Shown: in pieces, positions 2,091 through 22,740 of the stretch
How positions within the stretch are numbered: the first letter of the stretch is position 1
Layout: every line of letters starts with the position of its first letter
DNA from: a virus
Reading direction: 5' to 3' (one strand)
IMG/VR virus record: IMGVR_UViG_3300027513_000042
Coordinates: 1-26,311 of that record
DNA length: 26,311 bases
The notes under the pieces: model-generated
Told to the model about the DNA's origin: nothing
What the model saw: only the letters and a program-made list of their open reading frames with translations
Database searches by the model: none
Translations under genes and position numbers: made by a program

Positions 2091-2098
2091 TGGCGTCT

Positions 2099-2114
2099 CC
2101 TTGATGCAGTGCTG
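2099..2114. repeat. 16-bp direct repeat, copy 1 (left border of plus-strand cassette)
   Basis: CCTTGATGCAGTGCTG, identical to 2678-2693. On the minus strand it lies just before the holin-like gene and supplies the AAGG of its Shine-Dalgarno. The minus -10 box (2120-2115) touches its other edge. Together with copy 2 it brackets the only plus-strand genes. Confidence 0.9.
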
Positions 2115-2120
2115 ACTATA
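2115..2120 (-). promoter_or_regulatory. Leftward -10 box for the holin/glycosyltransferase block
   Basis: Minus strand reads TATAGT, a near-consensus sigma70-type -10 box. Transcription would start near 2108, leaving a short leader with AAGGAGA before the ATG at 2090. A -35 is weak (TAGCAA at 2146-2141, 18-bp spacer). If the genome is circular, this promoter could serve lysis, HNH, terminase and structural genes. Confidence 0.5.
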
Positions 2121-2148
2121 TCCGTTGCGGACTGAAACTTGCTAGGGG

Positions 2149-2157
2149 TGATACACT
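2149..2157 (+). promoter_or_regulatory. Extended -10 promoter of the plus-strand cassette (leaderless)
   Basis: TGATACACT is an extended -10 (TGN followed by TANNNT). Only six bases (2158-2163) separate it from the ATG at 2164, so the predicted transcript starts at or next to the start codon. No Shine-Dalgarno sits at a usable distance. No convincing -35 is seen, which is normal for extended -10 promoters. Confidence 0.55.
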
Positions 2158-2163
2158 TACGCT

Positions 2164-2541
2164 ATGGAAGTGAATCAAACGGAGTACGGAGAACGCCCCG
2201 AGGTCGCCGCTATGCTGCGGAGAACCGGGCGGGGCAACGTAGCTGGGGTGTTCGTCGGCGGATGCGTGAGCCGAGGCATTGGCTCGTCGTTCCGCGCAGC
2301 GGCCCATACGCACTGGCCCGATGACGACGAAGGCCACGGTCGGTGGATATGCATCAGGTCGCCGAAGCGCGTTCTCACGCCGTCGGGCGGGCCGTCTCGG
2401 CTGCTCCTGCACGAGTGCGCCCACGTCATCGCACCCAACGCCAGCCACGGATCGGCCGCCTTCATCGCTGCATTGCGGGCCGTGGGCATACGGACGGATT
2501 CGTACTCGCGGGCGGGACGCCTCAGAAAGACCCGAGGATGA
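2164..2541 (+). CDS. HExxH metallopeptidase-like protein
   Basis: 125 aa on the strand opposite to nearly all other genes. The clear motif is LLLHECAHVIAP, with H83, E84 and H87 forming an HExxH zinc site; H95 (NASHGSAAF) is a likely third ligand eight residues after H87. This arrangement (HExxH, short spacer, HG..F) resembles the SprT/Wss1-like and phage metalloprotease folds, although the protein is short. The N-terminal half has no recognised domain. The start is fixed by the -10 box ending six bases upstream, predicting leaderless translation. The stop overlaps the next ATG (ATGA). The gene is flanked by 16-bp direct repeats and is probably an acquired moron. Its substrate is unknown; it could act on a repressor or host protein. 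Confidence 0.65.
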   Translation: MEVNQTEYGERPEVAAMLRRTGRGNVAGVFVGGCVSRGIGSSFRAAAHTHWPDDDEGHGRWICIRSPKRVLTPSGGPSRLLLHECAHVIAPNASHGSAAFIAALRAVGIRTDSYSRAGRLRKTRG

Positions 2542-2654
2542 AGCGGCGCTGCTCCGAGTGCGGCGCCGAAATCGACGGGCGACGGGACCGGCTGACTTGC
2601 TCCGCCCGTTGCCGCGTCGCTCGTGCGCGCCGGTTGAAGCGGCTCCGTCCCTGA
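2538..2654 (+). CDS. 38-aa four-cysteine zinc-finger protein
   Basis: The ATG at 2538 overlaps the TGA of the metallopeptidase-like gene (ATGA), so the pair is translationally coupled. The protein starts MKRRCSECGAEIDG and contains C5xxC8 and C21xxxC25, then a strongly basic tail (RVARARRLKRLRP). This is the pattern of small phage zinc-ribbon proteins with a nucleic-acid-binding tail. It ends six bases before the convergent stop of the minus-strand gene at 2661; no terminator is seen between them. Together with its partner it may form a two-protein module. Function unknown. Confidence 0.65.
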   Translation: MKRRCSECGAEIDGRRDRLTCSARCRVARARRLKRLRP

Positions 2655-2660
2655 ACGCAC

Positions 2661-2855
2661 TCACGGGGCGCCCTCGCCCTTGATGCAGTGCTGGCATAGT
2701 CGGATGTCGCCGCTCTGCTCGAGCGCCGCTCCGGTGGTCACGTCCAGCGTCTCGCGACCCTCCACGTCGTCCACATTGCACTCCTCGCGCGGGTTGCGGT
2801 GCAGCGTGTCGACCCCTTCGTTGCGGTTGAGGACGTAGTACGGCTCGGTCATCAT
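2661..2855 (-). CDS. Small conserved phage protein (64 aa), possible zinc site
   Basis: ATG at 2855 overlaps the endolysin stop (ATGA) and follows GGAGGA at good spacing; a second ATG three bases on could also serve. The protein reads MMTEPYYVLNRNEGVDTLHR, then NPREECNVDD, and ends RLCQHCIKGEGAP. C26, C54 and C57 with H19 could bind one zinc. I recognise the general type as small proteins found in many actinophage genomes but know no function. Its last codons contain copy 2 of the 16-bp direct repeat, so this gene was probably adjacent to the holin-like gene before the plus-strand cassette arrived. Confidence 0.7.
   Translation of the reverse strand: MMTEPYYVLNRNEGVDTLHRNPREECNVDDVEGRETLDVTTGAALEQSGDIRLCQHCIKGEGAP
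2678..2693. repeat. 16-bp direct repeat, copy 2 (right border of plus-strand cassette)
   Basis: Identical to 2099-2114 (CCTTGATGCAGTGCTG) in the same orientation. On the minus strand it encodes the QHCIK end of the 64-aa protein. It lies 23 bases beyond the stop of the plus-strand zinc protein. Confidence 0.9.
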
Positions 2856-3640
2856 CGTCGGTATCCTCCATTGATGACGTACACATGGCGCCCCAACCCG
2901 TACAGGTGACCCCATGAGCCGTCGTCGTTGGTGGTGGTGCCGCGCAGCTGCCAGCCGCTCAGATTCGCCACCTTCTTTCCGGTCCGGTCGTAGACACCGT
3001 CGGCGCGCGTGAGATAGGCGATGTTGGCGTCACCGACGTCGAGGTCCGGTGTGGAGCGCACGTTGAATCCGGGGACCAGCGTGATGAGGGGGTAGCTGGT
3101 CGCACCGCCGGGTCGGATGCGCGCATCATTCTGCTGCGCTCCCCCGAGCATGAAGTCGGCGAAGTCGTACAGCATCCAGCGCCCGCTCTCGAGGATGAGA
3201 AGGTTCGTGTGGCAGTGAACGCCATACGTCGAGCGCACGTAATAGGAGCCGTTCCATATCGTGCCGGTGGCGCCGACGGTTGCGATCACCTGGCCCCGGC
3301 TGACCTTCTGGCCGACCTTGACCGACAGCGAGTTGCAGTGGTTGTACGAGTAGCGCGTGCCCGCGCGGATCTCCACCTCGACCACCCAGCCGCCGCCGTT
3401 GTACTTGTCATAGGCGGCGCGGGTCACGGTGCCCGCCTCGGCCGCCCTCAGCGGCGACCCGGCGGGCATGCCGGCGAAGTCCGTGCCGGCGTGGACGTTA
3501 TCGTGGAGGACCGCGCCCTGGAACCAGACCCAGTACGCCTTGATCGTGCCGAGGTACCACATCGTCGGCTGCACGGCCATCTGTGACGGCCCGAAACGCT
3601 GCGAGATGTGGCCGCCGTCGAGCGGTAGGCGCAAGCTCAT
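2852..3640 (-). CDS. Endolysin: M23 metallopeptidase with C-terminal wall-binding-like domain
   Basis: 262 aa. The M23 (LytM/lysostaphin) domain spans about residues 40-160. Zinc ligands are visible as H50-A-G-T-D54 and the H142-C-H144 pair, with another active-site histidine at H101. It would hydrolyse peptide bonds in peptidoglycan cross-bridges. From about 185 the sequence becomes an SH3-like beta-rich module (GFNVRSTPDLDVGDA to the end) with SDGT-like aromatic positions, a likely wall-binding domain. There is no signal peptide, so release depends on a holin; candidate membrane genes flank it. The N-terminal 40 residues include the typical ISQRFGPS start of phage M23 lysins. It may alternatively be virion-associated, but its location among small membrane genes favours lysis. 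Confidence 0.88.
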   Translation of the reverse strand: MSLRLPLDGGHISQRFGPSQMAVQPTMWYLGTIKAYWVWFQGAVLHDNVHAGTDFAGMPAGSPLRAAEAGTVTRAAYDKYNGGGWVVEVEIRAGTRYSYNHCNSLSVKVGQKVSRGQVIATVGATGTIWNGSYYVRSTYGVHCHTNLLILESGRWMLYDFADFMLGGAQQNDARIRPGGATSYPLITLVPGFNVRSTPDLDVGDANIAYLTRADGVYDRTGKKVANLSGWQLRGTTTNDDGSWGHLYGLGRHVYVINGGYRR

Positions 3641-13683: not shown

Positions 13684-15410
13684 TAGATGCCCGCCGAGTT
13701 GGTCGACTCAGAGAAGCCCGTCGAGGTCCTCAGCACGGTGGAGCGGTACATCTGGTTGGCGATGACCGACACGCCCACCGTGTTGTTGACGTTCACGTTA
13801 TTGCGGACGTCCACGTTGTGCGGCGTACGGGCCACCGCGTCGATGCGCGGGCCCAGCCCGCCTACCGCGCCTGAGACGCCGCGCGTCGCGTCAACGGACG
13901 TGAGGATGGCCGAACGCTCGTCCCGCGTGAGCGATTCGACCCGCTTCAGGGACTGCGCGACGGCGCCGTGGTTCCACAGGCGGTCGAACTCGGACCTGGT
14001 CATCTCGCCGCTCTTGACCTTCAGCCGGTCCGCTTCCATCTGCGCGTTGTTGTTGGTCGACCCCGACAGCATCAGCGGCAGCGCCGCGAGGCCCGCCACG
14101 AGGGGCAGCTTGCTCGCTGGCCCCTTGCCGCCGCCCGGTCCACCCGTAGGACCGTTGACATTGACGACGCCGGCCTGGACCGTCATCAGCCCGAGCTTCT
14201 GCGTGATCCACTTGCCGAGTCCGGTCGTCACGCCTCCGAGAATCCCACCCAGCGCCCCGCCGGTGAGCTTGTTCAGCCCCCAGCCGGTGAGGACGGCGGT
14301 CTGCACCCACGGCGGCAGGCCCATGAACGCGTCGAGCAGCGCCTTGGAGCCGGTGCCCAGCAGGCGCGCGGCGTTGCCGATGGACTCCCACGGCAGCCCG
14401 CCCACGGTGGAGGCGATGCCACCGATGTCGGCCGAGATGCCCGAGAAGTCGCCGCTGGTCAGGGCGTCCATGCCCTGCTCCAGCAGGGCCACCCCGCGCT
14501 CCAAGTTGGCGTCGGTGAACAGGCCGGCGATGGACTCGCCCAGCTGCTCGGCGCCTTGGAGGACGCGGTCGGAGCCGAGGAAGTCGATGAGCTTGTCGCG
14601 CACCCGGTCGATGGCCGGGAGCAGCGGGCCGGCGAGTGCCTTCTGTACGTCCTCGATGCGGTCGGCCAGTGCCGCCTGCTTGCCGGCTGCGGTGTCACCC
14701 GCCGCCGCGAAGCGGCCACCGTACAGGTCGGCCAGCCGGTCGAGGATGATCTCCTGCGCTCCCAGCATGTCGCCGGATTCTTGGAGCGCCTTGATCTCTT
14801 CCTTCTGCTGGTCGGTGAACGTCGCGCCACGCTTCTCCAGCCGCGACAGCCCCTTGGCCGGGTCGTTCAGCGCACGCCCGAGGGTCGTGACGATGCCTTG
14901 CAGGCCCTCCGGCCCACCGCCGAGCGCCTCGTTCATGTTCAATGCGGCCTCGAGCGTCGGCTCGAAGGCCTTGTCTCGGATGTTGGTGAACGTCAGCAGC
15001 AGGTTGGCGCCGGACTGGATGACCTTGTCGTCGATGGTGGCGTTGAGGTTCTCGTACTCCTCGGACATCTCGCGGATGCCCTCGGCCGTCTGCCCGCTGA
15101 TGCCGTTCGTGGACTTGAGTACGGTCTGGGTGGCGACCGTGACGTTCTCAAGCTCGTTCAGCGCATCGACGCCCTTCTTGACGTTGACCACCAGCAAGCC
15201 GACGCCCGCCACGGCTCCGACCACGCCGATCTTGGCGAGGTTGGTCAGCCCACGGTTGACGCCCTGGCCGGCCAGCGCCGCGTTGCGCTGCATGCCCGAC
15301 AGGCGCTTCTCGAACCCGCCGATGGCTCCCTCGGCCTTGCCCAGGGGCTTGCTGAACTTGTCTTGCAGCTCGAGGGCTGCGATGAGCTTCGCAGTCTCAG
15401 CGGTTGCCAC
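13683..15410 (-). CDS. Tape measure protein
   Basis: 575 aa. GTG at 15410 three bases after the frameshift-frame stop, with AAGGGG upstream. It follows the tail-chaperone pair and precedes the tail tip, the canonical tape-measure position. The N-terminus has a coiled, charged region, then a hydrophobic span (about 60-76, KIGVVGAVAGVGLLVV). The middle is helical with the typical tape-measure pattern around EALGGGPEGLQGIVTTLGRA and RLEKRGATFTDQQKEEIKAL. A Gly-rich stretch (GPTGGPGGGKGP) precedes the C-terminal domain. At roughly 0.15 nm per residue it predicts a tail near 86 nm. No muramidase or peptidase motif is visible. Confidence 0.88.
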   Translation of the reverse strand: MATAETAKLIAALELQDKFSKPLGKAEGAIGGFEKRLSGMQRNAALAGQGVNRGLTNLAKIGVVGAVAGVGLLVVNVKKGVDALNELENVTVATQTVLKSTNGISGQTAEGIREMSEEYENLNATIDDKVIQSGANLLLTFTNIRDKAFEPTLEAALNMNEALGGGPEGLQGIVTTLGRALNDPAKGLSRLEKRGATFTDQQKEEIKALQESGDMLGAQEIILDRLADLYGGRFAAAGDTAAGKQAALADRIEDVQKALAGPLLPAIDRVRDKLIDFLGSDRVLQGAEQLGESIAGLFTDANLERGVALLEQGMDALTSGDFSGISADIGGIASTVGGLPWESIGNAARLLGTGSKALLDAFMGLPPWVQTAVLTGWGLNKLTGGALGGILGGVTTGLGKWITQKLGLMTVQAGVVNVNGPTGGPGGGKGPASKLPLVAGLAALPLMLSGSTNNNAQMEADRLKVKSGEMTRSEFDRLWNHGAVAQSLKRVESLTRDERSAILTSVDATRGVSGAVGGLGPRIDAVARTPHNVDVRNNVNVNNTVGVSVIANQMYRSTVLRTSTGFSESTNSAGI

Positions 15411-20441: not shown

Positions 20442-20930
20442 TTACTTACGCGAGATTTCCATAGGTTGTGTCATACGGACGTCGCAGTACGCTTCCACGG
20501 CTTGCCGAATAACATCTGAACGTGACGACTGCGCGGCGACCGACATGCGTTCTAACTTGCCTAGCAGCACACTCGACATGCGCACGGTGACAATCTCGCC
20601 CGCCGGATCGAACTCGCCACGCGTATCTCGCGCTCGTACTCCTCGGATTCGGCCCGCTTCCCGGCTGTCCTGAGCATTGTCCCAAGGCGTACCGAGATAC
20701 AGATGGTCCGGCCGGACGCAGCGTGGGACATCGCAACGATGGAGTACCCACTTACCGTCAGGGAGTGGACCGTGCGCCAGTTCCCAACTGACGCGATGAG
20801 CCATTTCGGGGTGATGGGACTTGCCCCGGAACTGACCGTATCCCTGACTCCCGGTCACCGCTCCCTGCCACAGCCAGCAGGCGCCATCGGTCTTGACCTT
20901 CGCCCAAAACCGTTCTTCCAACGTACGCAT
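20442..20930 (-). CDS. HNH homing-type endonuclease fused to ribbon-helix-helix domain
   Basis: 162 aa. ATG at 20930 chosen for the GAGG six bases upstream; a GTG 12 bases farther is possible. Residues 1-95 match HNH_3 homing endonucleases: ERFWAKVKTDGACWLWQGAV, MAHRVSWELAHGPLPDGKWV, then LHRCDVPRCVRPDHLYLGT with H64, C66, C71 and H76. Residues about 110-150 (GEIVTVRMSSVLLGKLERMS, then AAQSSRSDVIRQAVEAYC) look like a CopG/Arc ribbon-helix-helix DNA-binding domain, a plausible targeting module. The gene is isolated by non-coding flanks on both sides and is visibly less GC-rich than its structural neighbours, as expected for a mobile insertion within the head gene cluster. Confidence 0.8.
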   Translation of the reverse strand: MRTLEERFWAKVKTDGACWLWQGAVTGSQGYGQFRGKSHHPEMAHRVSWELAHGPLPDGKWVLHRCDVPRCVRPDHLYLGTPWDNAQDSREAGRIRGVRARDTRGEFDPAGEIVTVRMSSVLLGKLERMSVAAQSSRSDVIRQAVEAYCDVRMTQPMEISRK

Positions 20931-20949
20931 ATCCGGCCTCACAACAAAC

Positions 20950-21024: not shown

Positions 21025-22740
21025 TCAACCGATATCGGCGCGCACCGTGTCGCTCGACTCCACCACCACCCGAACGGGCTGCCCGTCGCTCATCTCAACC
21101 GACAGCGGAGCATCCGGCACGACCACCGCGCCCATGCCATCGGAGTCGATGGCCGCGCCAAGGCCGGCGAACGCCACCGTCACCGATGGCCGGTACATGG
21201 TCGTGGTCAGGGTCGCCGGTCCAGGCCGGTAGGTGCCGGCGCTGTCGAGCTCGACCGAAGGCGCGAACGTCGTCAGGGTCAGGGCCGCCGTCGTGGGCGT
21301 GACGCTGGTGTTGGCCGTGGCCGTGACGGTCGGGGCGAACGTGGACAGGGTGAGCGCCACAACGCCCGGCGTGACGAGCTGGTGCTGCGTGACCGCGACC
21401 GTCGGCGCGAAGGTGGAGGTCGTCAGGCTCGCCACGTCCGGCGACACGCGAATCGACACCGAGATGGTCGGCGCGAACGTAGAGGTCGACAGGCTGGCGG
21501 TCGCCGGTGTGACGCTCTTGTGGTCCGACGCCGTGACCGTGGGCGAGAATGTCACCGTGCTGAGAGCCGTGGTGGTCGGCGTGACGAGCTGGTGATCGGT
21601 GGCGACCACCGTCGGGGCGAACGTCGCGGTCGACAGGCTCGCGGTGGTTGGTGTGACCGTGACGTGAGCCGTCGCCGTCACCGTCGGAGCGAACGTCGCG
21701 GTGGTCAGGCTTGCGGTGTCGGGCGTGACGAGCTGGTTCTGGGTCGCGCTCACCGTCGGCGCGAACGTAGAGGTCGACAGTGAGGCGGTGGCAGGCGTCG
21801 CCAGGACCGGCGTCGTCACCGTGGGAGCAAAGGTGGCAGTCGTCAGCGAGGCCGTGGTGGGGGTGACGGTCTGGTGTGCGGTGGCGGTGACGGTAGGCGC
21901 GAACGTCGCGGTGGTCAGGCTCGCGGTCGTGGGGGTGACACTGACGTTGTTCGGCACCGTCACGGTCGGCGCGAAGGTGGCGGTCGCCAGGCTCGCCGTG
22001 GTCGGGGTCACGGACTGCGGAGCAGCTGCCGCCACCCGCAGGCGGATGAAGCCGGTGACGCCCGTCTCGGCCGCCGCCTGGGTGCCAGTGCAGACCGGAG
22101 CGGCCGATGCAGTGCCCGACGTGACCGACCGATAGGCCGAGGTGCCGGCCATGTCGTCCGACGTGCCCGACGCGATGGGCGTGGCCGGGAACACCGTCAC
22201 CGCCGCGAGCGTGGCGCTGGTGGCCGTCCAGGTCGGGACGGTCAGGGCCGAGTCGTCGCGGGTGGTGTGCGTCACGATGCCGAAGTCGCCGGCGGTGATG
22301 CCGGGGTTGGCGCCCATCGTCACGCTGATGGACGTGGCGTTGTTGGTGGCAGCTTGGACGATGGCGGGCACGTTCCACGTCTCGCCTGCGCCCTTGGTGA
22401 AGCACAGCGCCACCGCGATGCCGGGGGTGGAGGTCTGGGAGCCGCCCCACGTCACGACTGGGTTCGTCTCCGCTCCCGACGTAGCCTCGCGCCAGAAGAT
22501 GGCTTGCGTCACCGACCCAACGCCGACGCCCGAGGCGGTGGTGCCGTCGGCGAACGACGCCGCCTTATGCCAGCCGCTGGCCGGGGTCGTGACCTGGAGG
22601 TTGAGGCTGGCGGGCGTAGCCGACTTGCACGCCGCGATGAGGACGAGGATGTTCCCCGCCGCGTGTGACGGCAGGGTGACGGTCTGCGTTGTTGCGTTGA
22701 CGGCAGCCCATGCGCCGGCAGCGCCAGCGCCGATTGCCAT
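21025..22740 (-). CDS. Virion protein with beta-sandwich and twelve Thr/Pro-rich repeats
   Basis: 571 aa. ATG at 22740 is three bases past the upstream stop. Residues 1 to about 235 form a Gly/Ala/Thr-rich beta-sandwich (AGNILVLIAACKSATPASLN, TTRDDSALTVPTWTATSATL). From about 243 to 517 there are about twelve copies of a 22-24 residue unit of the form VTPTTASLTTATFAPTVTA; the last is degenerate (YRPGPATLTTTMYRPSVTV). A short C-terminal domain follows (VEMSDGQPVRVVVESSDTV). The repeats resemble a mucin-like stalk or beta-solenoid. It lies between portal-linked small virion genes and the head genes, so it may be a head fibre or decoration. The role is inferred from composition and place. Confidence 0.6.
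   Translation of the reverse strand: MAIGAGAAGAWAAVNATTQTVTLPSHAAGNILVLIAACKSATPASLNLQVTTPASGWHKAASFADGTTASGVGVGSVTQAIFWREATSGAETNPVVTWGGSQTSTPGIAVALCFTKGAGETWNVPAIVQAATNNATSISVTMGANPGITAGDFGIVTHTTRDDSALTVPTWTATSATLAAVTVFPATPIASGTSDDMAGTSAYRSVTSGTASAAPVCTGTQAAAETGVTGFIRLRVAAAAPQSVTPTTASLATATFAPTVTVPNNVSVTPTTASLTTATFAPTVTATAHQTVTPTTASLTTATFAPTVTTPVLATPATASLSTSTFAPTVSATQNQLVTPDTASLTTATFAPTVTATAHVTVTPTTASLSTATFAPTVVATDHQLVTPTTTALSTVTFSPTVTASDHKSVTPATASLSTSTFAPTISVSIRVSPDVASLTTSTFAPTVAVTQHQLVTPGVVALTLSTFAPTVTATANTSVTPTTAALTLTTFAPSVELDSAGTYRPGPATLTTTMYRPSVTVAFAGLGAAIDSDGMGAVVVPDAPLSVEMSDGQPVRVVVESSDTVRADIG
21190..22016 (-). repeat. Twelve coding tandem repeats, 66-72 bp each
   Basis: The repeats encode the VTPTTASLTTATFAPTVTA-type units of the virion protein. 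They are diverged copies with variable short spacers (for example TATAHQT, VPNNVS, ASDHKS), not identical as in CRISPR arrays. Nucleotide divergence and fixed reading frame show long selection on protein. Confidence 0.85.

Follow-up and report, generated by a model that had tools for sequence, protein, structure and literature searches.

A small metallopeptidase cassette between short direct repeats in a phage lysis cluster: a probable moron-like insertion

So tight is the packing of phage genes that stop codons overlap with ribosome-binding sites, and it has to be asked how extra genes enter such genomes. The question is posed by a locus of an IMG/VR virus record, the whole 26,311 bases of which were analysed and are here called the window. 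Since an identical contig of 13.7 kb (L003) joins both ends of the window, with 7 bases between them (L003 955-985; window 26311/1), the window is near-complete and the genome maps as a circle of approximately 26.3 kb; that contig ends before the cassette considered here, the junction of the 64-aa and holin genes being outside its span. No DNA match of the window was found among 50,697 phage records, and no defence-system model was matched. The minus strand carries all of the late genes, namely terminase, portal, capsid and tape measure, followed, in this order, by an M23 peptidase (2852-3640), a probable endolysin; a 64-aa protein (2661-2855) of the YVLNxN...CN.D...CxxC family, with homologs in the phages L045, L017 and L020 and a shortened one in L048; a holin (phrog_9752; 1710-2090; profile match with E 8.7e-19); a 57-aa small membrane protein (1540-1713), to which a small similar protein corresponds in the same order in L045; and a glycosyltransferase. 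Inside this minus-strand lysis cluster, the holin gene is separated from the 64-aa gene by the only plus-strand genes of the window, two in number (2164-2654). Elsewhere in the window, at 21025-22740, a gene of about 571 aa contains 24-aa (72-bp) repeats of the type VTPTTASLTTATFAPTV, which are present in the relatives as well, and its product is likely a decoration or surface protein.

The plus-strand pair is flanked by CCTTGATGCAGTGCTG, exact at 2099-2114 and 2678-2693, as the initial annotation had reported; the third-best match in the genome, at 25372 within the terminase gene, has 3 mismatches. The repeats had been placed immediately outside the plus-strand genes, and they do flank them; however, 49 bp separate copy 1 from the first plus-strand ATG downstream of it, and copy 2 starts 23 bp past the last plus-strand stop, inside the 64-aa gene, that is, near the gene borders and not exactly at them. 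Both copies translate to QHCIK on the minus strand, and the frame of copy 1 runs on through ETP into the holin ATG at 2090, in agreement with the earlier reading. Copy 2 holds the CxxC codons near the C-terminus of the 64-aa protein, while copy 1, which reads as a relic of the 3' end of the 64-aa gene, contributes the AAGG of the holin Shine-Dalgarno sequence AAGGAG (2097-2102, minus strand). The identity stops sharply at 16 bp in both directions, and a longer decayed duplication around the repeat was considered and rejected, the extension being not significant.

The number of exact 16-bp direct repeats to be expected by chance, formerly put at about 0.1 in 26 kb, is higher in simulations, from 0.45 (Markov-1) to 2.0 (Markov-5) per window, and a second exact pair is present at 14063/16890, outside the repetitive gene at 21-22 kb; therefore, the 16-mer pair alone means little. 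It is the position that distinguishes it: only 0.01-0.1 such pairs are expected within 700 bp, neither of two models, each simulated 5,000 times, ever gave 16 matching bases across the two flanks of the plus-strand pair, and with this layout shifted over the actual genome sequence, 16 bp were reached only in the placements over the CCTTGATGCAGTGCTG pair itself. The initial judgement that chance is improbable at the cassette borders is thus upheld. The repeat might still be a coincidence helped by the Shine-Dalgarno constraint on copy 1, with the cassette acquired independently or ancient in the lineage, as the second pair in the non-repetitive genome and the approximately two pairs per window expected by the higher-order models would allow; the simulations, the failure of this layout to yield such a match anywhere else in the genome, and the correspondence of copy 1 to a segment lying at the 64-aa/holin overlap in L045 make this explanation unlikely.

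The two plus-strand genes are real; since the conserved protein is the plus-strand one, a 161-aa open reading frame antisense to them on the minus strand (2175-2660) was not accepted as a gene. The first gene (2164-2541, plus strand) encodes P0001, an HExxH zinc metallopeptidase of 125 aa that belongs to a phage family of the SprT/minigluzincin-like kind, assigned from an 11-member alignment and a fold comparison. Single-sequence scans with P0001 and with the holin yielded no relatives, and tblastn of P0001 against the 50,697 phage records gave nothing above noise; the family was found by a two-sequence profile search alone, at ten viral loci and in one Planctomycetales MAG. Invariant in the 11 aligned members are GxFVGGCV, HxxAH and a distal His; P0001 carries HECAH, with H83, H87 and H95 kept in 11/11 members and E84 in 10/11, the exception being L037 (HGIAH), where the catalytic Glu is gone. 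The members at L037 133-498 and L038 5941-6309, with HGIAH instead of HExxH, are probably inactive as proteases, to judge by the motif. The invariant cysteines C34 (GGCV) and C63 (WIC) of P0001 are near the conserved HxH and might conceivably provide a cysteine switch of the Wss1 kind.

P0001 has no Pfam match, its family relatives score at most 17.2 bits against the Pfam SprT-like family, below the cut-off of 25.6, and NCBIfam gave nothing over cut-off; since no profile match attains a curated threshold, the protein is called SprT/minigluzincin-like only, without being assigned to the Pfam family. Among solved structures, the minigluzincin proabylysin is its best profile match, and the AlphaFold2 model of P0001 (pLDDT 81.5) has abylysin (Z 6.0), SPRTN (5.4) and Wss1 (5.0) at the top of its list of similar structures, all under 8; the model also resembles SprT-like phage proteins in BFVD, and Foldseek alone gave no significant PDB match. 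Like abylysin (PDB 4JIU), its best match both by profile and by VIA-align, P0001 is a small single-domain HExxH peptidase, although the sequence score is marginal (E 0.015) and the Z moderate. Wss1 and Spartan have themselves been described as minigluzincins (PMC4559962). With the actinobacteriophage SprT-like proteases, such as those of the Gordonia phages Yakult, Button and others and MPC00488 of mycobacteriophages (PMC12363180), the P0001 family shares the HExxH motif, the distal His followed by W/F and, to judge by the model, a similar fold; it differs from them by its size of approximately 100-125 aa, the strongly conserved N-terminal half GxFVGGCVxRGxGSSFRAxAHxH and scores below the Pfam threshold, P0001 having no convincing tblastn relative in sequenced phages. 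The best guess as to function, by analogy and from the model, is that of a small zinc protease which would act, like SPRTN and Wss1, on DNA-bound or damaged proteins.

The second gene (2538-2654, plus strand), which overlaps the metallopeptidase gene by ATGA, encodes a 38-aa CxxC...CxxxC zinc-ribbon/treble-clef protein with a homolog, 68% identical over 25 aa, in a promoter-led cassette beside the endolysin gene of L020. The GC3 of the two genes (0.75/0.79) is below that of the neighbouring lysis and structural genes (0.88-0.92), several non-structural genes of the same phage being as low; an atypical overall GC of the cassette was looked for and rejected (66.8% against 67.3%). A promoter of its own had been attributed to the cassette, of which a candidate extended -10 stands, TGATACACT (2149-2157, plus strand), and a sigma-70 match does not, none being given by the sigma-70 scan. 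The candidate precedes the start codon of the metallopeptidase gene by six nt, from which a leaderless mRNA would be expected; on the two strands of the window it is the single TGNTANNNT at such a distance (4-8 nt) from an ATG, where 0.53 occurrences are expected by chance. An own terminator is an often cited property of morons. At the cassette end, where only 6 bp lie between the two convergent stop codons, no stem with a T-run, the terminator type covered by the scan, was found.

The ancestral arrangement is approached through the relatives. The 50-kb phage L045 encodes a homolog of the 64-aa protein, 65% identical over its length, and there, with no cassette, the last 8 bases of this gene are shared with the beginning of a holin-like membrane gene, and the Shine-Dalgarno sequence of the latter, CAGGAGG, sits within the 64-aa gene. 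In L048 the shortened 64-aa homolog overlaps the endolysin gene, so that a small gene of the 64-aa type overlaps the next lysis gene in two of the phages examined, and in L005/L008 a holin-like gene directly adjoins the endolysin gene, again with no cassette. The earlier proposal that the 64-aa and holin genes were once adjacent is borne out by L045 to the extent that a cassette-free overlap exists; however, L045 is a distant phage whose holin-like gene has no detectable homology to the window holin, which has to be counted against an insertion, and the comparison of junctions that had been proposed as a check brought out no close empty-site relative with a single repeat copy in the collections searched.

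The cassette gene itself is variable in place, as another of the proposed checks revealed. In L028/L029, the capsids of which are 56-57% identical to that of the window, the metallopeptidase gene is directly upstream of the major capsid gene (MCP), as part of a cassette headed by a sigma-70 promoter (10/12) and, in L029, with two additional genes; thus, its place with respect to the core genome has changed. A search of 19 other relatives, of which several are fragments, brought up no family member, the empty result being weak evidence. The site just upstream of the MCP holds different accessory genes in the relatives (metallopeptidase cassette, glycosyltransferase, HNH endonuclease), at L028 5156-6048, L029 4930-6579, L004 6136-6741, L019 5028-5891 and window 20442-20942.

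Sister phages L017 and L020 differ by the presence or absence of promoter-led small-gene cassettes at two sites, the endolysin gene and the 3' end of the gene for the 64-aa protein. The cassette with the 38-aa homolog stands before the endolysin gene in L020 and has no counterpart there in L017, while in L017 the 64-aa gene is directly followed by a promoter-led cassette (L017 9548-10000), where L020 retains a 24-bp relic, CTCTCACCGGGGAGCATCTGTAG (L020 9736-9760). The relic corresponds to the end of the HTH gene closing the L017 cassette, a deletion footprint. Because the two phages differ there, the 3' end of the 64-aa gene is a place where cassettes come and go. These cassettes and that of the window belong to the same lysis cluster and consist of small genes; unlike the latter, those of L017/L020 are co-oriented with the lysis genes and contain no metallopeptidase.

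By another route, the 64-aa gene would have been acquired jointly with the cassette from a donor phage that already carried the cassette behind its 64-aa gene, as in L017, and both would have been joined at the 64-aa/holin junction of the recipient, copy 1 being the remnant of the recipient's own 64-aa gene and no duplication being involved. The L017 cassette directly behind the 64-aa gene and the relic of the same in L020 speak for this swap, as does the sequence after copy 2: the 64-aa family has a conserved tail GxxAP, the window tail past copy 2 is GEGAP, and the bases beyond copy 2 may hence be native to the 64-aa gene, as this resemblance hints. The swap also raises no stop-codon problem. 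However, 16 identical bases are long for otherwise diverging homologs, the 64-aa homolog of L045 differs within the corresponding stretch, and a donor was not found; the exchange is possible, though we are doubtful of it. As regards the abrupt end of the repeat and the native-looking tail, recombination with a donor suits them at least as well as pure duplication.

The native-looking tail argues as well against a simple target-site duplication. Direct repeats of such length can be target-site duplications of a transposon-like element, but the 0.56 kb between the copies contain only two small genes and no transposase or recombinase, terminal inverted repeats of the repeat-bounded segment are absent (493/500 shuffles score as high), and no recognisable ends of an element adjoin the repeats; such an element, lacking inverted repeats and transposase, was rejected and is to be regarded as highly improbable.

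The reading frame across the junction had been offered in support of an insertion, and it is rather a difficulty: when the flanks are joined in silico, an uninterrupted in-frame 64-aa/holin fusion results, with no stop, so that one has to assume at least a small indel (1-2 nt) or else an ancestral junction of another kind. The fusion could alternatively be one state of a reversible cassette, in which 579 bp would be lost by recombination of the two copies and the phage would alternate between separate genes and a 64-aa/holin fusion; the deletion would leave the frame intact and keep the holin Shine-Dalgarno sequence, whereas a repeat of 16 bp is rather short to recombine efficiently by homology, the neighbourhood has no gene for a site-specific recombinase and the excised form was not found, and we hold this switch to be very unlikely.

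The explanation preferred by us, as probable, is the entry of a moron-like cassette at the 64-aa/holin junction with a duplication of approximately 16 bp of it. In the ancestor, the two genes would have overlapped, with the holin Shine-Dalgarno sequence contained in the final codons of the 64-aa gene; the SprT-like metallopeptidase and zinc-ribbon cassette, on the strand opposite to the late genes, would have entered there by an illegitimate recombination that duplicated the junction bases, so that copy 2 still ends the 64-aa gene with its CxxC codons and copy 1 still provides the holin ribosome-binding site, the cassette being transcribed on its own from the candidate extended -10. Both genes would thus be kept intact because the junction was duplicated; otherwise, the insertion would cost either the CxxC end or the ribosome-binding site. 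The insertion is well supported in outline and the duplication step is probable. Accordingly, the moron insertion of the initial annotation is retained in part: the cassette-free adjacency in L045, the metallopeptidase elsewhere in L028/L029, the failure to find it in the 19 other relatives searched and the low GC3 are for it, and the missing clean single-copy empty site, the fusion of the joined flanks and the native-looking GxxAP tail are against it.

Morons are defined as looking inserted when an operon is compared across related phages (PMC2629481) and as having their own promoter (PMC6814406). A moron is also dispensable for lytic growth. The presence and position of the metallopeptidase vary among the relatives; an inserted look may be given by the cassette-free overlap of L045, with its non-homologous holin, no close relative spanning the junction; and the cassette has the extended -10 only, while the cassettes of the relatives have 10/12 promoters. 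Like the phage morons, such as the 'ant moron' of P22-like phages (PMC2629481), it consists of independent-looking genes in a late operon, variable among relatives, here in the orientation opposite to the late genes. Unlike known morons, it has a promoter candidate only, and it is bordered by a short direct repeat which seems to be a duplicated gene overlap.

With this locus, a subfamily of minimal SprT-like metallopeptidases not described before is recognised, occurring in phages of different groups. As to the acquisition, the kind of phenomenon is already known, of which this is a tidy example with an instructive scar. It is a speculative extension that duplicating a shared stretch of stop codon and ribosome-binding site lets morons enter overlapping phage genes undamaged, that short direct repeats at such junctions are general, recognisable scars of moron acquisition, and that cassettes can leave by recombination between them. 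For the question of how extra genes enter tightly packed phage genomes, the locus and the overlapping relative together offer a concrete and testable answer, namely that the overlap gets copied.
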